Shown: piece after piece, positions 7,652 to 64,000 of the stretch
Position numbering within the stretch: position 1 is the stretch's first letter
Layout: the number at the start of each line of letters is the position of its first letter
IMG/VR virus record: IMGVR_UViG_3300030012_002072
Span: 1 to 64,000 of that record
Origin: a virus
DNA: 64,000 bases
Direction: 5' to 3' (one strand)
The notes under the pieces: model-generated
What the model was told of the DNA's origin: nothing
What the model saw: the letters and a program-made list of their open reading frames with translations, nothing else
The model's database searches: none
Program-made: the position numbers and the translations under genes

Positions 7652-9937
7652 ATGGCAATATATGTTAACGACAGCGGAACACTTCGAGAGATTTCCTTTC
7701 TGGCAATCAACGATAGTGGTACGGTCAGAAGAATCAATGAAGTTTATGTAAATGACGGCGGGTCTCTTGAAGGCCCGTTCACTATTACACATACAACCAG
7801 TAGAGATACTGCGACTTCAACTATTACGATTTCTGGACTACAGTTAACAACATTTAATACAACTACAACTTTTGATACTAATAGAAGTACAGTAACAACA
7901 ACTGTATTTGATACAACTACAACTTTCAATACTAATAGAAGTACAGGAAGTTCTAGAAGTACAACTACAACTTTTGAAACAAATACAACTACAACTACAG
8001 CGTTTACGACTACAACAGCGTACACTACAACTACTACCTTTACAACAACACAAGGTACAACTACAGCGTTTACAACTACAACAGCGTATACTACTACGAC
8101 TACTTTTGAAACTAGTAAATCGACTACAACTACTTTTACTACTACAACTGCATACGAAACTACTACTGCTTTTGAAACAGATAAGAGTACTACAACTGCA
8201 TACGATACAACAACCGCGTATACTACAACATACGATACAACAATTAGTACAAGTAGAACTACAACTTTCGCAACCGATACTGCATATGTAGATAATACAG
8301 GTCAAAGTACTACTAGAACTACAACATTTGCTACAACTACAGCATACGAAGATACTACAACTTTTGAAACTTCAAGAGACACAGTATTCGCTACTGATAC
8401 AGCATATGTTGATAATACAAGTTTTGCTACTACAAGAGATACAGTATTTGCTACTAGTACTGCATATGTGGATAATACAGGACAGGCAACAACTAGAACA
8501 ACTACATTTGCGACAACAACCGCATATGTAGATAATACAGGTCAAGCCACAAGTAGAACAACTACATTTGCTACTACTACTGCGTATGTAGATAATACTT
8601 CACAGTCAACAGCTTATAGTACTACATTTGCAACAAACACAGCAAGAAACACTAATACAAGTAGAGGTACAGCATTTACTAATTCTACATCTTTTGCGAC
8701 AAATACAGCAAGAAATACTAATACAAGTAGAGGTACAGCATTTACAAACAATACTTCTAGAAATACAAACACTTCTAGGGCAACTGCAACAGCATATAGT
8801 TTTGACCCAGAAGCAGGTGGTACTGAGTTTGATAACACAACAACTTCATTTACTAACTCTACATCTTTTGCTACAAACACATCAAGAAATACTGCGTTTA
8901 CTAATGCAACAGGATTTACAAATAACACTTCTAGAAATACTAATACAAGTAGAAACACAGCGTTTACTAACTCAACAGGATTTACAAATAATACTACAAG
9001 AGGTACAAGTAGAACAACTTCATTTGCAACAAATACTTCAAGAAGCACAAATACATCCCAGTCAACTTCTTATACAACTACATTTGCTACAAATACAAGT
9101 AGAAGTACAAATACATCGCAATCTACAAGTTATACTACAACATTTGCCACAAATACTGCAAGAAGTACAAACACTTCACAAAGTACTTCTTATAATACTT
9201 CACAGGCAACAAATACAAGCAGAAGTACAAACACTTCTCAGAGTACAACATATAATACTAGCCAGACTACTAATACAAGTAGAAGTACAAATACTTCACA
9301 GACTACTTCGTATACAACAACATTTAGTACAAATACAAGCAGAAGTACAAACACTTCTCAGTCAACAAACTACGAAACTTCTTTTGCGACTTCAAGAGCA
9401 AGCTCACGAAGCACAGGAACAAGTAGAACTACAACTACAGTATTTGATACTACTCAAGCAACAGCTACAAGTAGAGGAACAGCAACTTCCAAATCTACTA
9501 CAACAGTATATAATACTACACAAGGCACAGCTACAAGTAGAAGTACAGCATCCAGTAGAACAACGACTACAGCATTTGATACTTCACAAAGTACAGCAAG
9601 TTCTAGAAGTACTGCTTCAAGTAGAAGTACAACTACAACTTATAATACAACTAAGAGTACAACAACTGCCTTTAATACAACAACAACTTTTGAGACAACT
9701 CAAAGTACATCTAGCTCTAGGGGTACAACTACAACTACAACATTTAATACCACTAAGGCTACCGAGACAAGTAAGAATACTGACCACTTGACAACAACAA
9801 CATTTGATACAAGTACAACAGTATTTGAAAGAACAACCGCCAGCTCAGCAGGAACTCTATTTGATACAGAAGTGTCAAGCCTAGAAGATTATGGATTCTC
9901 TTACTGGGATGGCTCACAATGGAGTGAATCTAGCTAA
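7652..9937 (+). CDS. Giant Thr/Ser-rich repeat fibre protein, 761 aa
   Basis: A short N-terminal module (AIYVNDSGTLREI, repeated twice as NDSG) is followed by about 650 residues composed almost only of Thr, Ser, Asn, Ala, Arg, Phe, Tyr, Asp and Gln. They are arranged as short units such as TTTFETN, TAYVDNTGQ, NTSRSTNTSQS and SRSTASSRST. An aromatic residue recurs every 7-10 residues. The C-terminal ~40 residues (SLEDYGFSYWDGSQWSESS) are unlike the repeat and could be a cap or binding tip. It has no predicted enzymatic motif. The stop overlaps the next start (TAATG). An elongated Thr-rich fibre is the simplest reading. Confidence 0.7.
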   Translation: MAIYVNDSGTLREISFLAINDSGTVRRINEVYVNDGGSLEGPFTITHTTSRDTATSTITISGLQLTTFNTTTTFDTNRSTVTTTVFDTTTTFNTNRSTGSSRSTTTTFETNTTTTTAFTTTTAYTTTTTFTTTQGTTTAFTTTTAYTTTTTFETSKSTTTTFTTTTAYETTTAFETDKSTTTAYDTTTAYTTTYDTTISTSRTTTFATDTAYVDNTGQSTTRTTTFATTTAYEDTTTFETSRDTVFATDTAYVDNTSFATTRDTVFATSTAYVDNTGQATTRTTTFATTTAYVDNTGQATSRTTTFATTTAYVDNTSQSTAYSTTFATNTARNTNTSRGTAFTNSTSFATNTARNTNTSRGTAFTNNTSRNTNTSRATATAYSFDPEAGGTEFDNTTTSFTNSTSFATNTSRNTAFTNATGFTNNTSRNTNTSRNTAFTNSTGFTNNTTRGTSRTTSFATNTSRSTNTSQSTSYTTTFATNTSRSTNTSQSTSYTTTFATNTARSTNTSQSTSYNTSQATNTSRSTNTSQSTTYNTSQTTNTSRSTNTSQTTSYTTTFSTNTSRSTNTSQSTNYETSFATSRASSRSTGTSRTTTTVFDTTQATATSRGTATSKSTTTVYNTTQGTATSRSTASSRTTTTAFDTSQSTASSRSTASSRSTTTTYNTTKSTTTAFNTTTTFETTQSTSSSRGTTTTTTFNTTKATETSKNTDHLTTTTFDTSTTVFERTTASSAGTLFDTEVSSLEDYGFSYWDGSQWSESS
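7831..9820 (+). repeat. Low-complexity coding repeat (ACA/ACT/AGT codons)
   Basis: Tandem degenerate units, such as ACAACT and AAYACAAGTAGAAGTACA, encode the Thr/Ser-rich region. The longest regular part, about 9010-9370, has a period near 60 bp (20 residues, NTSRSTNTSQSTSYTTTFAT). The bias creates long open frames on both strands that are not genes. Confidence 0.8.
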
Positions 9938-10101
9938 TGGATAAATTTGAAAAAGATAAAGATATTACACCAGCGTATGTAAATAGAAAAATGGAATCTA
10001 TGCTTACTGCAATTTATGATGTAATAGAAGAAAACGAACATAGAATGAGAAAGATGGAACAAGTCATCTTCGAGCTGCAGAATGGTAAAGCCGAAAAATA
10101 A
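9937..10101 (+). CDS. Small coiled-coil protein, 54 aa
   Basis: Its ATG overlaps the stop of the Thr/Ser repeat protein (TAATG) and its 3' end overlaps the next gene by 20 bases. The protein is highly charged, with a predicted helix (MESMLTAIYDVIEENEHR, MRKMEQVIFEL). Overlaps at both ends argue that it is a real coupled gene. A role as fibre chaperone or oligomerisation factor is only a guess. Confidence 0.55.
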   Translation: MDKFEKDKDITPAYVNRKMESMLTAIYDVIEENEHRMRKMEQVIFELQNGKAEK

Positions 10102-10969
10102 ATTAGAAGCTCTCAGCATTAACGAAGAAGTAGGTGATATTGTCACTCACTGGATGAAGTCAGGTTCTGCCTTTAGACCTTCTGGAGATTTATTAAAATT
10201 AAATGAATTTGGTAAGAAACTTCTGCCAAAATCTCACAGAGGTTTACCATTTGAGTATGACATATGGTTTAACACAAACGAGAACTATACCATACGAAAA
10301 TGGCTCTACACAGATTTTATGGGAAAGGGATTATACTTTCGAGTTCCTTCCATAAAGATTAATAATAAACTGTTCAAGGCAATTGTTAATTCCGACATAA
10401 AGATAGACGAGGAAAGAGTTGCCAAAGTGATGGATAATTTGCAGAACAAATATTATCTACATCCTAGTAACAAATTTTATGAAAAAGTAATATTTTTACC
10501 AGGAAGCAACTTATTATGCAAAACTGACTGTATAGACATTCAAAGATGTGATAAATTAATTAAAGAAGGATATATAATAAAACCACATCCTATAACTGCT
10601 CCTATTTTTATTGCAGAACTAAAAGCAAGATACGGAGATGATAAAGTTTTAGGAAAGAAAGAAGGTGGTCATGAACTTCTTTTAAATGCTAGTGAAATAG
10701 GTACTGCACAAAATAGTGAAATGGGTATCACAGCTTTTCTACTAGGTAAGAAAGTACAAATGGTTTCTCACCCTGTAAAGAGGAGAGAGAAAAGATTACT
10801 TACCTATGAAAGTTTTTATGATGCAGTAGCTGGCACAAATGCAAAAGAAACAATACTAAAATTGTTCTCAGCAAAAAATTCAGGGATAATATTTAACTTT
10901 GATGAGGACGCAGACGAAAGACTAGAAAGGTATCTAGCAAACTTTTGGGAATATGAAATAAAATTATGA
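10082..10969 (+). CDS. Capsule-polysaccharide-type glycosyltransferase-like protein
   Basis: 295 residues. The C-terminal half has IIKPHPITAP followed ~40 residues later by NASEIGTAQNSEMGITAFLLGKKV (positions roughly 198-221). This is the arrangement of GT-B capsule enzymes of the KpsS/KpsC type, with an HP motif and then a small-residue turn before an (A/E)xxLLGK helix. It is coupled to the next gene by ATGA. It may modify surface sugars or virion proteins; substrate unknown. Confidence 0.5.
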   Translation: MVKPKNKLEALSINEEVGDIVTHWMKSGSAFRPSGDLLKLNEFGKKLLPKSHRGLPFEYDIWFNTNENYTIRKWLYTDFMGKGLYFRVPSIKINNKLFKAIVNSDIKIDEERVAKVMDNLQNKYYLHPSNKFYEKVIFLPGSNLLCKTDCIDIQRCDKLIKEGYIIKPHPITAPIFIAELKARYGDDKVLGKKEGGHELLLNASEIGTAQNSEMGITAFLLGKKVQMVSHPVKRREKRLLTYESFYDAVAGTNAKETILKLFSAKNSGIIFNFDEDADERLERYLANFWEYEIKL

Positions 10970-36226: not shown

Positions 36227-36943
36227 TTAACCTATTTCTTTTCTAGCTGCGCCATTGTAGTCAGCACATTGTAAGCCTCTTCTAGTTAGCATTGTTTTAA
36301 CACCTCTAACTGTTTTGCCGATTTGGTCAGCAATTTCTTCAACAGTCATACCGTCTATTTCAACATCTGCTAATGGGTCAGCTTTGCTGCTACCTTTAGT
36401 TTCTTTTTGCTTTGGAATAGCATTGATTTCACCAGCTCTAAGTAGTGATAATGCTTTACCTCTGATTGAGTTAACGCTTCTGCCCATAGCTTCTGCGATG
36501 TCCTCAATAAAAGCTCCATCGTTTACTAGAGAAACGAATTGGCTTTCCTCATCTTCGCTGTAAGTTTTTACAGTTTCAACTTTAGGAGCAGGTTTAACAT
36601 GCTCTGTTAGTTGCATAGATAAGATTTTACCTTGAATTGATTTAGCAGAGAAATGTCCGCCTTCAAAGTTTTCAGCAATCTCTGCGTATGTGTAAACACC
36701 TGAGTTATCAGTTACAAAGTTGCTTAAAGTAGCTTCTTGCTCGTCTGAAAAAGACTTAGAAGCATTTGCTGATGCTAATTCAACATCATATCCCATTTTT
36801 CTCAATTTAGAACTTACACTTCTAACTGAAGTTTCAAGTTCGTCAGCTGCGTTTGCAACTGTATCTTGAGAGATAGGGCTTTCAGAACCTACAAAGTCTA
36901 CAAGAGCTTGGGTTCTTTCATCTGTCCATTTTGGTAATGCCAT
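36227..36943 (-). CDS. Triple HTH-repeat DNA-binding protein
   Basis: 238 residues with three related helix-turn-helix-like segments: a WTDERTQALVDF start and VRSVSSKLRKMGY; FSDEQEATLSNF with AKSIQGKILSM; and YSEDEESQFVSL with VNSIRGKALSLL. A fourth resembles MTVEEIADQIGKTVRGVKTML. It belongs to the same family as four smaller proteins in the window. AGGAGA precedes the start. It is probably a transcription regulator and is abundant-looking in context. Confidence 0.7.
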   Translation of the reverse strand: MALPKWTDERTQALVDFVGSESPISQDTVANAADELETSVRSVSSKLRKMGYDVELASANASKSFSDEQEATLSNFVTDNSGVYTYAEIAENFEGGHFSAKSIQGKILSMQLTEHVKPAPKVETVKTYSEDEESQFVSLVNDGAFIEDIAEAMGRSVNSIRGKALSLLRAGEINAIPKQKETKGSSKADPLADVEIDGMTVEEIADQIGKTVRGVKTMLTRRGLQCADYNGAARKEIG

Positions 36944-45752: not shown

Positions 45753-46109
45753 TTAGAAGCTATAACCATAGGTCATTATATCATCTTTAAATAGTACGGC
45801 AACATAAGTTTTACTCTTAATAGTATACCACCTTCTCCAATCTTCTATTATCTTAACATCATCTAAAATTGATGTATCTTTTGGATGTAGTTTAAACTCT
45901 TTTAGTTCTTGTTGCCAATCATTAAAATTTACAATGTAGTCGCAATCTTTATAAAGCTCTACTTGTGATTTAGGAGCATGGTCTGTTAGCCACTTATCGA
46001 AACCTATATAATTAAAAGAGTAGAAGTATTCTGTCACTACTCTTTCGTATGGATTTCTTATCACTCCTATACTTTTATTATCGCAGGTTAGTAATAAAGC
46101 GTGATTCAC
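45753..46109 (-). CDS. Short sulfotransferase-like protein
   Basis: 118 residues. SIGVIRNPYERVVTEYFYSF matches the 3'-phosphate-binding motif (RxPxxRxxS) of sulfotransferases, but the N-terminal PAPS loop (KCGGTS-type) is missing. It is too short for an intact family member, so it may be a remnant or a repurposed fragment. It overlaps the 56-residue gene upstream by 32 bases. Confidence 0.5.
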   Translation of the reverse strand: MNHALLLTCDNKSIGVIRNPYERVVTEYFYSFNYIGFDKWLTDHAPKSQVELYKDCDYIVNFNDWQQELKEFKLHPKDTSILDDVKIIEDWRRWYTIKSKTYVAVLFKDDIMTYGYSF

Positions 46110-56880: not shown

Positions 56881-57084
56881 TTAGAACCAACCATCTTTAG
56901 ACCTAGGAACATTGTCGTCCTGTAGCACTCTTATTCTTTGTGTTGCTACAACTTCTCTATGTCCACTAGGAAATCTTAATCTAGCTTTTACACCCGTTGG
57001 GGTTTCGATTAAACCCATGACTTCGGCGTATCTACCATGTTTCTCCACTAGCTCGTCAATCTTGCTTAGCTTACATACTCTCAT
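56881..57084 (-). CDS. Hypothetical protein, 67 aa
   Basis: A basic beta-rich protein (AEVMGLIETPTGVKARLRFPSGHREVVAT) of SH3-like appearance. It is the last gene of the early operon and overlaps the HTH gene upstream by 14 bases. Function unknown. Confidence 0.55.
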   Translation of the reverse strand: MRVCKLSKIDELVEKHGRYAEVMGLIETPTGVKARLRFPSGHREVVATQRIRVLQDDNVPRSKDGWF

Positions 57085-57379
57085 ATAATCTCCTTAGCAC
57101 AGTCTTTGGTGCTTTCTCTAAACCCGCTAGGGCTTCGTTAGGTATTCCTAATTTTTCAGCTAGATTTTCTACTATTTGTATTTTTGTTATCGGTTTTTCA
57201 CCAGTTTTGGTAGTATATTCAGTCTTTTTATATACTCCTTCCCTACTTAACTTACCTATAATCGATTTTACACTTTTGTTTAGTTCATCTGCTAACATTT
57301 CTACTGTTTCTCTATTAGGGTTGAGCCTATATTGATTAACAATGTATTCTACTTGGTCTTGTGTATAGTTTACAGCCAT
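57071..57379 (-). CDS. HTH regulator, paralogue of 61755
   Basis: 102 residues from the ATG with GGGAGG upstream. MAVNYTQDQVEYIVNQYRLN, ETVEMLADELNKSVKSIIGKLSREGVYK and TTKTGEKPITKIQIVENLAEKLG align along most of their length with the protein at 61755. The KSIIxKLSREGVYK and TTKTGE motifs are shared. It is probably a DNA-binding regulator. Confidence 0.75.
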   Translation of the reverse strand: MAVNYTQDQVEYIVNQYRLNPNRETVEMLADELNKSVKSIIGKLSREGVYKKTEYTTKTGEKPITKIQIVENLAEKLGIPNEALAGLEKAPKTVLRRLYESM

Positions 57380-57522
57380 AGCATATCCTCCCATCTTCTG
57401 ACTAACATTTCTACTTGGTATACTGACATACCCCATTCTTCACTAGCAATTCGTATTGCTTCTTCACGACCATGAATCTTCTCCCAGTCGTAGTATTCAA
57501 ACTCTCTATCGTCTTTCTGCAT
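57370..57522 (-). CDS. Small acidic protein, 50 aa
   Basis: MQKDDREFEYYDWEKIHGRE then helical EAIRIASEEWGMSVYQVEML. It overlaps its neighbours by 10 and 17 bases. The end resembles an HTH helix pair. No family recognised. Confidence 0.5.
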   Translation of the reverse strand: MQKDDREFEYYDWEKIHGREEAIRIASEEWGMSVYQVEMLVRRWEDMLWL

Positions 57523-60257: not shown

Positions 60258-60392
60258 TATGCCCTCCTTATAAATAAAAATTGTTAATCTAAGTGTAGTG
60301 TCTACCTCCTCCACTACTGCTGATTGTCGGTATCAGAACCCCACACTCATTAATCTAGGAAAATGTGGTTTCCTTTTTCTTTTTATACATAT

Positions 60393-60421
60393 ATTATACT
60401 CACTTTTATACTGATTGTCAA
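60393..60421 (-). promoter_or_regulatory. Sigma-70-type promoter for the early operon
   Basis: AGTTCTTGACA, 17-bp spacer, TATAATATATG. The ~130-nt leader 60258-60386 holds the AAGGAGGG site and no other gene. Confidence 0.85.
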
Positions 60422-60472
60422 GAACTATTTTGAATTAAGGTAGGAAATTTCGTGTGTCTACTTTTTGAAGAT

Positions 60473-60505
60473 AAAAAAAGAGGGAAGCGTTGATTAACTT
60501 CCCTC
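60473..60505 (-). terminator. Strong intrinsic terminator of the large RNA
   Basis: On the minus strand GAGGGAAG pairs perfectly with CTTCCCTC around a 10-nt loop, then seven Ts. Confidence 0.88.
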
Positions 60506-61449
60506 CAAAAAACTGTTTGTTTTTTACTTGAAGACTTACTGCCCCACTAAGTAGTTTACTCTGGGAGGGGGACTTGCCCACCAAACCAATCTTTCAACTA
60601 TCCTCGCAGTAAGTGTGGAGTTCTCTATACGCCACTCAGTCTGCAATTAGATTATAAGCATCGCTTCCTCTAATCTCGTGATGTGGCTCTATAAACTCCT
60701 TCGCCCATGACACCTATGCTCGCATTTACTTGAGGGTGAGGATTGAAGACTTGGGGTGTTCACATCGAAATGCTACTTACTGGTATCTTCCAAATCACAT
60801 CACTTGCACACTGAAGTGTCGTTTTTCTACTTTGACAGGTAAACCATGAATCGCCGTAGAGTTAAGTGCTGTCCGTTCACAGTCGACAGCATACTGATTG
60901 CAATAAGTGTGTTGCAATCCACATTGAGTTTTCTCCTTGTATCCACTCTTTATACATCAGTCGCTCTACCTAAAGTATATGCTGTTGTGTATAAACCCTG
61001 TTTCGTGTCAGCGTGGTTTCTTCACTCTATCTGATATTATCGTAGTATCTGATGTCAATCACGGTGTAATTTTGGATTTGCACTTGCTAATATACACTAA
61101 CACAAGGTTTTTAAGTGCCGACACACTCCTGAAGGGGTTTCTCTCTACGCTACTTACCACCAGTGGACTACAATCATGGGTGTTGACCTATGTAGTTTGG
61201 CATTACTGATAAGAGTAGAATCCTTACTTCTTTACCGACCAGTCAATCGAATATGCACTCCCTTTTATGTTCGCAAAATATGTCTGCATACGACTATCAA
61301 AACTACGCATATTATCTCTCTGTTACTGCACCTCTCAATATGTTTTGAGCATCAGGCATTTTTTATGTGATGCCTCACGAAGTAGCAATCCTTTGTCGTG
61401 GTAAAACATTACGCACTTGGTTTGCTTTATTTGTTTCTTTTCAGAATAT
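60473..61449 (-). ncRNA. Large structured non-coding RNA candidate (~0.97 kb)
   Basis: No long frame covers this interval. It has its own promoter (61456-61484) and terminator (60473-60505). Perfect helices are visible by eye: AGGCAT/ATGCCT at 61354 and 61370; ACTACA/TGTAGT at 61167 and 61191; GCACTT/AAGTGC at 61080 and 61113; GATTGCAA/TTGCAATC at 60896 and 60912; TGCTGTC/GACAGCA at 60867 and 60885; AGATTA/TAATCT with AAGC/GCTT inside at 60649-60676; and a long-range 9-bp GCAGTAAGT/ACTTACTGC at 60606 and 60534. A CAT-TTCG-ATG hairpin is also present. This resembles the style of giant ornate phage RNAs (GOLLD, ROOL), but homology is untested. Only frames of 15-28 codons exist; one, 61224-61310, has a weak Shine-Dalgarno. 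Confidence 0.68.
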
Positions 61450-61455
61450 AAGTAT

Positions 61456-61484
61456 ATTATATCCGCTTTTTAACCTTTTGTCAA
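61456..61484 (-). promoter_or_regulatory. Sigma-70-type promoter of the large RNA
   Basis: TTCTTGACA, 17-bp spacer, TATAAT. The next gene on this strand lies more than 1 kb away, beyond the terminator. Confidence 0.85.
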
Positions 61485-61506
61485 GAAAAATTTTGATTTA
61501 TTTCTT

Positions 61507-61577
61507 GAAAGGTGGGGTCGAGTTGCTACCATCAAATTGGTCTGTTATCTCGACCCCTTCTCTCTTTTCTCAAATAT
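61507..61577 (-). ncRNA. Candidate small hairpin RNA
   Basis: Between the promoter at 61584 and the next promoter, GGGGTCGAG and CTCGACCCC form a perfect 9-bp helix (61514-61557) around a 26-nt loop. The only frame here is 20 codons and runs into the next promoter. A short T-rich stretch follows, without a clear T-run. Confidence 0.4.
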
Positions 61578-61583
61578 ATGTAT

Positions 61584-61612
61584 ATTATACATACTTCAAG
61601 ACCAGTTGTCAA
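61584..61612 (-). promoter_or_regulatory. Sigma-70-type promoter for small hairpin RNA
   Basis: TTGACA, 17-bp spacer, TATAAT on the minus strand. Confidence 0.78.
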
Positions 61613-61642
61613 TAGAAAATGTGATTTATTTTCTACTTAACT

Positions 61643-61725
61643 CACTTTTAAACTGGGTGTAGGAGTCGAACCTACCACCACCCCAACGGGTATGCTTCCA
61701 TAGACACTTCCCCAGTTTAAAAGTG
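61643..61725 (-). ncRNA. tRNA-like element in a 15-bp inverted repeat
   Basis: A perfect 15-bp repeat (CACTTTTAAACTGGG and complement) closes the element. Inside, GTAGG-TTCGACT-CCTAC is a perfect T-arm with a canonical T-loop. An ACCC-GTT-GGGGT mini-hairpin stands where an anticodon arm would be, and a D-arm-like GTG...GG...CAT precedes it. No CCA and no normal anticodon loop are present, so it is not a standard tRNA. Confidence 0.5.
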
Positions 61726-61754
61726 GATTACTTAGGGTAATCACTCCTTGACAC

Positions 61755-62066
61755 TTATTGTGAGATTGCGTCAACTAATCTTTGTAGGTCTTGCTTACCT
61801 GCTTTGACAAGTGTTGGAAGTTCAATTCCAAAGTGTTCTGAGATAGTTGCTACAAGTTCTGCCTTTGCTACAACTGGTTCGCCAGTTTTAGTAGTTCTTG
61901 GTTGTGCCTTGTAAACGCCTTCTCTTGAAAGTTTAGCAATGATACTTCTTGTAGTTTTGCCAAGTTCTCTAGCAAGTTCATCTACTGTTTCCCTAGTAGG
62001 GTTTGCTGTGTATTGCTCAGTCATTTGAGCAACCATTTCGTCTGTATAATTTTTAGCGTTTGCCAT
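61755..62066 (-). CDS. HTH regulator (short isoform), paralogue of 57071
   Basis: 103 residues from the ATG with GGGAG upstream. YTDEMVAQMTEQYTANPTRETV, ELARELGKTTRSIIAKLSREG and TTKTGEPVVAKAELVATI parallel the protein at 57071. It is expressed from the promoter at 62094. The frame stays open upstream to an ATG with GAGGAGAG at 62171, which would add 35 basic residues. It probably binds DNA as an early regulator. Confidence 0.78.
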   Translation of the reverse strand: MANAKNYTDEMVAQMTEQYTANPTRETVDELARELGKTTRSIIAKLSREGVYKAQPRTTKTGEPVVAKAELVATISEHFGIELPTLVKAGKQDLQRLVDAISQ

Positions 62067-62241: not shown

Positions 62242-62859
62242 TTATTTTAGATTTTCTACTACTTTGTTAATCAAAGCAAGACGACCTTCTGCTTTCACAT
62301 TGTAGTCAATGCTATGCCATTCTCCAAGTGTAGTGAACACTCTCTCCTTAAGAATTGTCATCTGGTCATATTTTGACAGTGCTATCGCATCGTTGGGTGA
62401 GAACTTCCACTTTGTTAGTGGTGAACTCTGTCTTTTGTCGATGCGATACTCCTGTTCTTCTTCGGAAATTGACAACCAGCATTTGATAAACTTTACACCA
62501 GACTGTCTGCTTTCCCATTCTAGCACATTGTCCATGAACTCATTGTATTGATACTCTGTGCACCAACCATTGAGGTATTGAACCATTGCTCTTGAATACC
62601 AACTTCTGTCGAAGAATACGATTTGATTATCACTTGGCAACTTATGTTCCCAACTTTCCAACCAGTTCGCCATTTCTACTTCTGTCGGTTTAGAACTGAA
62701 TGACACGCTGTATTTACTTGTCGGCAAATAGTGGGTAAGTTCACGGATTGTCCCTGTTTTACCTGCTGTATCACGACCTTCTAGTATTACAGCAACTCTG
62801 CCAAAGTCATGCTCAACGATTTGATTGAGTTTGATTTGTGCTTGTTGTAGTTGTGTCAT
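62242..62859 (-). CDS. ppk2: Polyphosphate kinase 2 (PPK2)
   Basis: 205 residues. VILEGRDTAGKTGTIREL is the Walker A-like PPK2 motif (G-x-D-x-x-G-K), FFDRSWYSRAMV is the Walker B DRSWYxRA motif (D84, R85) and IDKRQSSPLTKWKFSPND is the lid region. PPK2 uses polyphosphate to phosphorylate NMPs or NDPs, or makes polyphosphate. It is the first gene of the leftward early region, which would help nucleotide supply early in infection. Confidence 0.9.
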   Translation of the reverse strand: MTQLQQAQIKLNQIVEHDFGRVAVILEGRDTAGKTGTIRELTHYLPTSKYSVSFSSKPTEVEMANWLESWEHKLPSDNQIVFFDRSWYSRAMVQYLNGWCTEYQYNEFMDNVLEWESRQSGVKFIKCWLSISEEEQEYRIDKRQSSPLTKWKFSPNDAIALSKYDQMTILKERVFTTLGEWHSIDYNVKAEGRLALINKVVENLK

Positions 62860-62882
62860 GTCGTTCTCCTAAATATGTATAT

Positions 62883-62911
62883 ATTATACTCGCTTTTATA
62901 CTCATTGTCAA
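62883..62911 (-). promoter_or_regulatory. Sigma-70-type promoter for ppk2
   Basis: TTGACA, 17-bp spacer, TATAATATATACAT; AGGAGA precedes the ppk2 ATG. Confidence 0.85.
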
Positions 62912-63025
62912 CAAAAAATGCGAAGTATTTATAAAAAACCACAGTTTAATTCGGGGGGCGGGACGCGAAACCTGTTCGGGTGCTTCGCAAAACTTCCAAA
63001 AAACGCAAAAAACTTGCATTAATTG

Positions 63026-63054
63026 TTGACAACCCCGCAAAAGCGTGTTATACT
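63026..63054 (+). promoter_or_regulatory. Rightward sigma-70-type promoter 1
   Basis: TTGACA, 17-bp spacer, TATACT. It shares CGCAAAAGCGTG-type spacer sequence with the promoter at 63718 and reads into the first iteron block. Confidence 0.7.
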
Positions 63055-63079
63055 ATAATTAACCTAATTATAGACTAGT

Positions 63080-63143
63080 GCATCACTTTGACACTTCGTT
63101 TTAGCACTCACGCATCACTTTAGCACTCATCACTTTTGCACTC
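63080..63143 (+). repeat. Iteron-like repeats, block 1
   Basis: Four imperfect units of the form CATCACTTTnnCACTC, about 15-19 bp apart, ending in TGGCGC. Confidence 0.65.
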
Positions 63144-63291
63144 TGGCGCGGTTCGCGCAAACGATTCGACCTATAAAACCGCTGTTTTAGCGGGGTTAGG
63201 CGAATATTGGGGAAACGATGTGGCTAATAATGGAATACAGCGCAGGCAAGACTTAATAAAGTGAAATAGTGATAAAAAATTAAAAAAACGC

Positions 63292-63320
63292 TTGACACCC
63301 GCAAAAGATTGTGATATAAT
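63292..63320 (+). promoter_or_regulatory. Rightward sigma-70-type promoter 2
   Basis: TTGACA, 17-bp spacer, TATAAT; the first DnaA-box pair lies ~8-27 bases after the predicted start. Confidence 0.78.
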
Positions 63321-63334
63321 CGGCGCGATTTGCC

Positions 63335-63354
63335 TGTGGATAACTTGTGGATAA
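63335..63354 (+). promoter_or_regulatory. DnaA box pair 1
   Basis: Two perfect TGTGGATAA sites (complement of TTATCCACA) start 11 bp apart, on the same helical face, followed by the AT-rich AAATATTTTTAAAATAATTT. Confidence 0.75.
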
Positions 63355-63382
63355 ATATTTTTAAAATAATTTGCTTTTCCTA

Positions 63383-63410
63383 TTGACAATGCTTGAAAAA
63401 TCATTATAAT
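63383..63410 (+). promoter_or_regulatory. Rightward promoter of the tiny gene
   Basis: TTGACA, 16-bp spacer, TATAAT, AGATAGC then ATG, eight bases after the -10. Confidence 0.72.
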
Positions 63411-63417
63411 AGATAGC

Positions 63418-63558
63418 ATGAAAAACGAAAAGAAAGTTGAAAAAACAAAAGCAACATTAGTTCGTGAAGTAGAAGTAAAATTCAAAAAGGACAAAGGTTT
63501 CTTTGACTCCTTAGAAAGAGCAAACAAAGAAACAATCGTCAAATTACTCTCTCTTTAG
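63418..63558 (+). CDS. Tiny charged protein, 46 aa (leaderless)
   Basis: MKNEKKVEKTKATLVREVEV followed by KFKKDKGFFDSLERANKETI. It is rich in Lys and Glu. The ATG coincides with the predicted transcription start, as at the other leaderless genes. A terminator follows ~90 bp later. No family recognised; it may be an early regulator or origin protein. Confidence 0.6.
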   Translation: MKNEKKVEKTKATLVREVEVKFKKDKGFFDSLERANKETIVKLLSL

Positions 63559-63650
63559 TCGACAGTTGTTAATAGTTTCCGAAGTGTAAGTTACTTTGTT
63601 CCTCAAAACTAATCATCTGTTCCTATTGGCACGGAGCAGGTGGTCGCCAA

Positions 63651-63694
63651 CCCGACAGATGTCCTAGAGGAACGGACAAATGTCGGGTTTTTTT
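63651..63694 (+). terminator. Intrinsic terminator after the tiny gene
   Basis: CCCGACA (63651-63657) pairs with TGTCGGG (63681-63687), followed by seven Ts. An alternative inner pairing with GGACAAATGTC is possible. Confidence 0.8.
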
Positions 63695-63717
63695 GTTAAA
63701 AAATTTTAAAAAACCTC

Positions 63718-63746
63718 TTGACAAATGTGAAAAAGCGTGCTACAAT
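63718..63746 (+). promoter_or_regulatory. Rightward sigma-70-type promoter 4
   Basis: TTGACA, 17-bp spacer, TACAAT, followed by a GC-rich stretch and the second DnaA-box pair. It reads out of the window to the right. Confidence 0.72.
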
Positions 63747-63778
63747 ACTAGGGTGGCGGGCGGGATACCCACGAGACT

Positions 63779-63798
63779 TGTGGATAACCTGTGGATAA
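63779..63798 (+). promoter_or_regulatory. DnaA box pair 2
   Basis: Two perfect TGTGGATAA sites again 11 bp apart, the same arrangement as pair 1. Confidence 0.75.
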
Positions 63799-63817
63799 GT
63801 CGGCTTCGCCCAGGTAG

Positions 63818-63887
63818 ACTTTGCACTTGCTTCACTTTTCCACTCTGGCGCAGACGCATCACTTTAACACTCATCACTTTTCCACTC
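63818..63887 (+). repeat. Iteron-like repeats, block 2
   Basis: Four units of the CATCACTTTnnCACTC family, two copies followed by TGGCGCAG. It repeats block 1 with changes. Confidence 0.65.
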
Positions 63888-64000
63888 TGGCGCAGGGGCG
63901 CGCTGTAAATCGCTGTAATTTTATATCACGCAGGGGGTGTCCCTCAAAATTAATTGACGAAAAAAAAGTGGTGGAAGAATCCAGCAATCTTTGATATAAT

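Follow-up and report, generated by a model that had tools for sequence, protein, structure and literature searches.

A mostly non-coding gap next to the dmp homolog of an uncultured T5-like phage is probably an injection-stop (iss)-type element

What is the function of a gene-poor stretch of phage DNA in which perfect DnaA boxes, direct repeats and strong promoters are found next to each other? The DNA analysed here, referred to as the window, comprises 64,000 nucleotides and represents the leading 64 kb of a virus fragment record of 75.6 kb. For its right end the original prediction suggested a bidirectional replication origin using host DnaA and an iteron-binding phage protein, or alternatively a plasmid-like state. 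The analysis presented here points to a different role: the region probably corresponds to the injection stop signal, iss, of T5. Such a control element is largely non-coding, is bound by proteins and borders, on the inner side, the genome part that enters first, i.e., the terminal repeat. This assignment is based on the homology of place, neighbours and motifs.

Judged from its genes, the contig is a T5-like phage, uncultured and only distantly related to T5. The DNA polymerase shares 47% identity with the enzyme of T5-like Salmonella phages, a D5-like regulator (36227-36943) matches the D5 family from end to end (phrog_323, E 2.5e-46), and the leftward gene order D5, D6 DnaB-type helicase, primase, polymerase, D10, D11, D12/D13, D15 is the order of T5. 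Megablast against cultured phages returned no match, and the clade is apparently marine, judging from the character of its phages. The gene for the terminase small subunit, terS, is located just right of the window and is homologous to T5-like terS (903 phage records). Relatives of terS are encoded by ~590 IMG/VR stretches and relatives of PPK2 were found at 42 IMG/VR loci; the order A2L, PPK2, gap, dmp, exonuclease, terS is kept in dozens of contigs. The protein encoded by the first gene right of the gap is homologous to Dmp, with 29% identity to the T5 protein (E 6e-16) and 30% to that of Vibrio phage D135 (E 1e-20), all three proteins belonging to phrog_415. It is followed by a DEDDh-type exonuclease with the invariant motifs DTE, NxxFD and HTALxD and then by terS. 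In T5, dmp is a pre-early gene inside the terminal repeat, the iss (AY543070, annotated at 9140-10149, within the 10.2-kb terminal repeat) is located at the inner edge of the repeat where the early genes begin, and terS is found immediately beyond the right repeat. Synteny with T5 and Cilsick therefore places the gap in iss position, with the PPK2 and A2-like early genes on one side and the dmp homolog and then terS on the other (positions crossing or beyond the window end are also given as L002 coordinates):

61755-62066, minus strand: A2-like HTH DNA-binding protein of 103 aa, homolog of T5 A2 (hhalign 96.9%, E 2e-10, 99 columns)
62242-62859, minus strand: PPK2-type polyphosphate kinase, the first early gene left of the gap (Pfam PF03976, E 1.1e-44)
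62860-64000, on to ~64354 (L002:7291-8785): probable iss-type, mostly non-coding gap from PPK2 to the dmp homolog
62883-62911, minus strand: perfect promoter-like TTGACA-17-TATAAT for the leftward PPK2/A2-like unit

Further features were observed around this block. A second gene-poor stretch of ~1.4 kb is located at 60315-61754, and at 61633-61735 an inverted repeat resembles a tRNA T-arm/acceptor (GTAGGAGTCGAACCTAC), for which neither ARAGORN nor Rfam gave a call; ARAGORN predicted no tRNA within the window, and Rfam gave no match above the gathering score for 54-64 kb. On the late side, right of the window (L002:13234-19939, ~68.8-75.5 kb), the contig encodes NifU/IscU-like and apparently IscA-like proteins, a CsgG homolog, a curlin-repeat-like protein, a FecR-domain protein and a CHASE2-adenylate/guanylate cyclase, a cargo unusual for a T5-like phage.

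The gap has a length of ~1.5 kb and crosses the window end. The originally proposed extent, 63026-63900, does contain the features predicted there, but its end at 63900 does not hold since the gap spans 62860 to ~64354. It is gene-poor as predicted, with one short plausible gene only, and the higher GC content turned out to be real but mild (39% compared to ~36% around). Promoters are in fact abundant, with 12 sigma-70-type matches in the gap compared to 3.6 expected. The plus-strand elements within the gap are:

63026-63054: sigma-70-type promoter-like TTGACA-17-TATACT (11/12 match)
63080-63149: repeat cluster 1, GCATCACTTTGACACTTCGTTTTAGCACTCACGCATCACTTTAGCACTCATCACTTTTGCACTCTGGCGC, ending in an R/GCGC nick-like motif at 63145
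63239-63245: isolated R/GCGCRG motif match, AGCGCAG
63292-63320: perfect promoter-like TTGACA-17-TATAAT (12/12), followed by CGGCGCGATTTGCC and DnaA pair A
63335-63354: DnaA-box pair A, TGTGGATAACTTGTGGATAA, then AT-rich DNA; conserved upstream of terS in relatives
63383-63410: perfect promoter-like TTGACA-16-TATAAT (12/12)
63418-63558: 46-aa ORF, MKNEKKVEKTKATLVREVEVKFKKDKGFFDSLERANKETIVKLLSL, the C-terminal domain of the A2-like family as a protein of its own (96%, E 4.7e-9)
63649-63689: terminator-like hairpin AACCCGACAGATGTCC/GGACAAATGTCGGGTT with T-run, after the small gene
63718-63746: promoter-like TTGACA-17-TACAAT, upstream of DnaA pair B
63779-63798: DnaA-box pair B, exact match TGTGGATAACCTGTGGATAA
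63829-63893: repeat cluster 2, TCACTTTTCCACTCTGGCGC...TCACTTTAACACTCATCACTTTTCCACTCTGGCGC, with R/GCGCRG at 63847 and 63889
63970-64023 (L002:8401-8454): hairpin with conserved loop TCCAGCAATCTTTGATATAATCTCNGTATGAGT and compensating stem changes, only its left part in the window

The two repeat blocks of the original prediction were recovered. The repeat TCACTTTNNCACTC is found exactly at 63115, 63130, 63832, 63859 and 63874, and a further copy at 63083 deviates by one mismatch; in the window 7 matches compare to 0.65 expected, the seventh being isolated at 46106. The spacings are irregular (32, 15, 702, 27, 15) and the core TTTGCAC is kept in one window repeat only (63130). A search of IMG/VR with the exact double-repeat pattern gave no match, because the relatives vary the repeat. 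At 63145, 63847 and 63889 a repeat runs into a nick-like site, and the motif at 63889, GGCGCAGG, is the full T5 nick consensus R/GCGCRGG. In 45 homologous gaps of relatives the repeat-plus-R/GCGC composite is ~80-fold enriched: CAC[TC]N0-6RGCGC occurs 89 times on the plus strand of 76 kb of gap sequence compared to 20 times in 1,339 kb elsewhere. Moreover, R/GCGCRG is strand-biased in the gaps (79 vs 20) and unbiased elsewhere (58 vs 51). The composite is missing from the most distant relatives. The repeat clusters were rejected as RNA structures, as their folding is no better than that of shuffles.

According to PMC13250531, which cites the iss work of Heusterspreute et al. 1987, the T5 iss contains DnaA boxes and palindromes together with multiple repeats and inverted repeats. 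All of these were found for the region studied here. The T5 iss contains two DnaA-like pairs (9437, 9498) and at least 8 copies of TGTGCAAATCCGACA, which is TGTCGGATTTGCACA on the other strand. This repeat core is present in Klebsiella phage Spivey and Vibrio phage Cilsick, and a related core (AATCCGCACTCACA, ACTTTTGCACTC) in Vibrio phage ValDsh2. In the map direction from early to pre-early genes, the repeats of these four phages are of (T/A)TTTGCAC-type; the window repeats have the same orientation, but are mostly TCACTTTNNCACT and not CGGATTTGCACA. The last T5 repeat continues directly into the major nick annotated at 9748/9749 (GGATTTGCACAAAA/GCGCAGGGC); the counterparts are GGATTTGCACCCAGGCGCAGG in Cilsick, TTTCGCACTCCCTGGGGCGCAG in ValDsh2 and CACTTTTGCACTCTGGCGC in the window, and TCGGATTTGCACTTGTCGGATTTGCACCCAGGCGCAGG of Cilsick and ACTTTTGCACTC...CCTGGGGCGCAG of ValDsh2 are similar in plan to CACTTTTGCACTCTGGCGC. 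Within the sequence sampled, the TTTGCAC...RGCGC composite is found once in T5, at this major nick, and in Spivey, ValDsh2 and Cilsick in the iss gap only; Vibrio phage D135 is an exception with a single match outside of the iss gap. The major single-strand interruptions of T5 have the consensus R/GCGCRGG (PMC3517423). The window repeats similarly end in G/GCGC, and the plus strand corresponds to the nicked strand of T5 after alignment of the maps, the window sites being motif matches, as sequence data cannot show nicks.

The likeness to the T5 iss thus includes a gene-poor gap by pre-early genes including dmp, tandem DnaA boxes, and many TTTGCAC-core direct repeats of the same map orientation that run into R/GCGC. 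It extends to palindromes and, in relatives of the window, to Fur-like inverted repeats. Long AT-rich palindromes (ACACCTTTAAACTTAAAC.../GTTTAAAATTACTGTAAGTAATTTTAAAC) are located at 64246-64288 (L002:8677-8719) and L002:11374-11407, and similar ones are TTTAAAATTTG in relatives and the TTTAAATTACT repeats in the T5 iss. Fur-like inverted repeats were called with the Fur consensus AATGANAATNATTNTCATT. They occur in T5 (9552-9715, the one at 9656 being perfect), Spivey (9184-9272), ValDsh2 (84109-84546) and the gaps of relatives, with 28 sites carrying no or one mismatch in the 76 kb of homologous gaps compared to 14 in 652 kb elsewhere; in this genome the only one is at 67388 (L002:11819). These sites suggest that host Fur might bind the injection stop, an idea open to testing, and a literature search on it returned nothing. 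In contrast to T5, the DnaA pairs run in the opposite direction along the map, and pairs and repeats follow each other in another order. The gap moreover harbours a micro-gene for an A2 domain as well as four strong promoters, and the terminal repeat, which is known for T5, is here predicted from synteny. Spivey, Cilsick and ValDsh2 (Demerecviridae) also have DnaA boxes in the terminal-repeat zone, but their pre-early block, which in Cilsick is present at both record ends, is longer and encodes A1 and A2 in addition to Dmp.

Turning to proteins that might bind the region, the claim of an iteron-binding phage protein holds in so far as genes for a DNA-binding family lie both next to the region and within it; an initiator of the Rep_3 type was not found. 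The A2-like protein at 61755-62066 matches the D5 profile more weakly than that of T5 A2. The 46-aa ORF is located between the DnaA pairs and is conserved in the same gap in many relatives; in L033, L035, L038 and L039 a full A2-like protein replaces it. By BLAST the 46-aa ORF, the A2-like protein and T5 A2 do not match each other, so profile comparison is needed to detect the A2 homology, and the direct comparison of the 46-aa family with T5 A2 is weak (13.6%). The genome encodes two A2-like paralogs (57071-57436 and 61755-62066) in addition to the D5-like protein. In T5, A1 is essential together with A2 for second-step DNA transfer. Of these two, only A2 has a counterpart here (61755-62066): A1 was not found in the contig, which is an incomplete record, or in 10 relatives, while the T5 and D135 controls were positive. 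Since A1 is missing, the phage is not assigned to the A1/A2-dependent two-step system.

The two DnaA-box pairs were confirmed as predicted: TGTGGATAA is found at 63335, 63346, 63779 and 63790, all on the plus strand and with 11 bp from start to start within a pair, and the pair pattern TGTGGATAANNTGTGGATAA (TGTGGATAA-N2-TGTGGATAA) has 2 exact matches compared to 0.01 expected from dinucleotide shuffles of 20 kb. In relatives, 32 tandem pairs lie upstream of terS (31 on one strand) and 0 downstream, and 14 of 37 distinct homologous gaps contain pairs, adding up to 27 perfect boxes, all on the plus strand. As sequence, strand and spacing of the boxes are conserved in these 14 distinct relatives, host DnaA very probably binds them, a part of the original prediction that is retained without the origin role. 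The remaining 23 gaps show no DnaA pair and no box excess, and 15 of these carry the repeat-R/GCGC composite, suggesting that DnaA binding is a common but optional part of the element. The pair TGTGGATAACCTGTGGATAA alone is found in at least 120 IMG/VR stretches, counted irrespective of phage type, so a bare pair is not specific for this phage family. Furthermore, a perfect box at 8467 lies inside a repetitive fibre-like gene, whose 60-bp unit creates near-boxes at 8287, 8407, 8527 and 8587, a reminder that single DnaA boxes carry no meaning.

Could the pairs nevertheless serve replication? In a DnaA-dependent origin, DnaA would bind the pairs and melt the AT-rich stretch after pair A, supported by transcription from the upstream promoter; the phage DnaB-type helicase would be loaded and the repeats would bind an A2/D5-type protein. 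Four perfect boxes in helical phase with AT-rich DNA right after pair A, seen also in relatives L004, L178 and L215, resemble bacterial oriC and other DnaA-box clusters; pair B has no such tract. Searches of the contig and four relatives did not detect T5.108, annotated as putative origin-binding protein of T5, which leaves room for such an origin; if active, it must use another initiator. In contrast to oriC, there are two pairs only, they are not conserved across the clade, and an origin-specific helicase loader was not found. In favour of an origin, the cumulative GC skew has its minimum near 66.5 kb, ~3 kb away. It does not switch at the boxes, however: the skew is negative through the dmp/exonuclease block and changes sign only where transcription diverges. 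Rep_3 was not found in the contig, with positive controls, and the genes right of the window were scanned as well. Moreover, no perfect box of the sequence sampled for T5, Spivey, ValDsh2, Cilsick and D135 falls outside the iss/terminal-repeat or pre-early zone, and the constant part of the element is the repeat-R/GCGC composite, which is no origin signature. With the many gaps lacking pairs and the iss-type position, neighbours and motifs, the bidirectional origin is unsupported; an origin is a live but weaker rival, which we regard as unlikely, and both roles could coexist.

The promoters could also indicate a pre-early transcription hub, in which strong same-direction sigma-70 promoters produce short RNAs and the 46-aa protein, and DnaA and A2-type proteins act as roadblock repressors just downstream of the starts. 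Four strong plus-strand promoters lie within 720 bp, two of them with a 12/12 match, the distance from a -10 box to the DnaA pair downstream of it is 15 to 32 bp, and a terminator is placed after the small gene. For the latter the -10 box of the promoter at 63383-63410 ends 7 bases before the ATG; judged by this layout its transcript would be leaderless. The hairpin at 63970-64023 fits as well: 8 pairs are changed on both sides in 6 sequences and its loop is nearly invariant (TCCAGCAATC..TTGATATAATCTC.GTATGAGT), making it a candidate RNA or DNA element. However, the hub explains neither the repeat-R/GCGC composite nor the iss position, nor why the element is common to T5-like phages whose iss gaps have little annotated transcription machinery. 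As the sole explanation it is slightly less probable than the origin, and transcription may be an additional role of the element that does not compete with the iss reading. An iteron-type plasmid replicon supporting the plasmid-like state is highly improbable and unsupported: with the DnaA boxes and promoters beside them, the direct repeats do resemble iteron origins, but their spacing is irregular, neither a Rep_3 initiator nor an integrase was found in the contig, and the contig encodes lytic T5-like replication genes, terminase and endolysin.

The iss-type element is the reading we prefer, with some observations counting against it: the reversed DnaA pairs and their absence from most distinct relatives, the missing A1, the single TTTGCAC copy in the window and the distant relatives without composite. 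A terminal repeat is predicted for this phage by analogy of gene order. A second copy of the region was not found in the 75.6-kb fragment record, where a terminal repeat would be collapsed, and contig ends occur in excess just upstream of terS, which is suggestive only. Since A1 was not found and the terminal repeat is not visible in the contig, the claim is limited to an iss-type element and two-step injection is not proven. As a model, a nucleoprotein block would form when host DnaA occupies the tandem boxes and an A2-type phage protein the repeats, with a strand nick at R/GCGC perhaps being part of it, and DNA entry would pause there once the pre-early genes are inside. The published description of the T5 iss is of this kind (PMC13250531). 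The strong gap promoters would support early synthesis of the 46-aa A2-domain protein, which may tune or release the block.

How T5 halts and resumes the entry of its DNA, including second-step transfer, is as yet little understood (PMC13250531), and its fixed nicks have no known function (PMC3517423). As a tentative generalisation, which is possible but for now doubtful, the core of the stop in the T5 family might be a TTTGCAC-type array that places a nick at R/GCGCRGG, rather than the DnaA boxes; bound by A2-family proteins including the 46-aa one, by DnaA and by Fur, it would act as a gate for staged entry that is A1-free in a large environmental clade. Widespread uncultured T5-like phages that kept the repeat-nick-motif core, varied the DnaA boxes and in which A1 is undetected represent a natural dissection of this element. 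Comparison across the clade separates constant from optional parts of the iss and provides short mutable motifs that are testable in T5.
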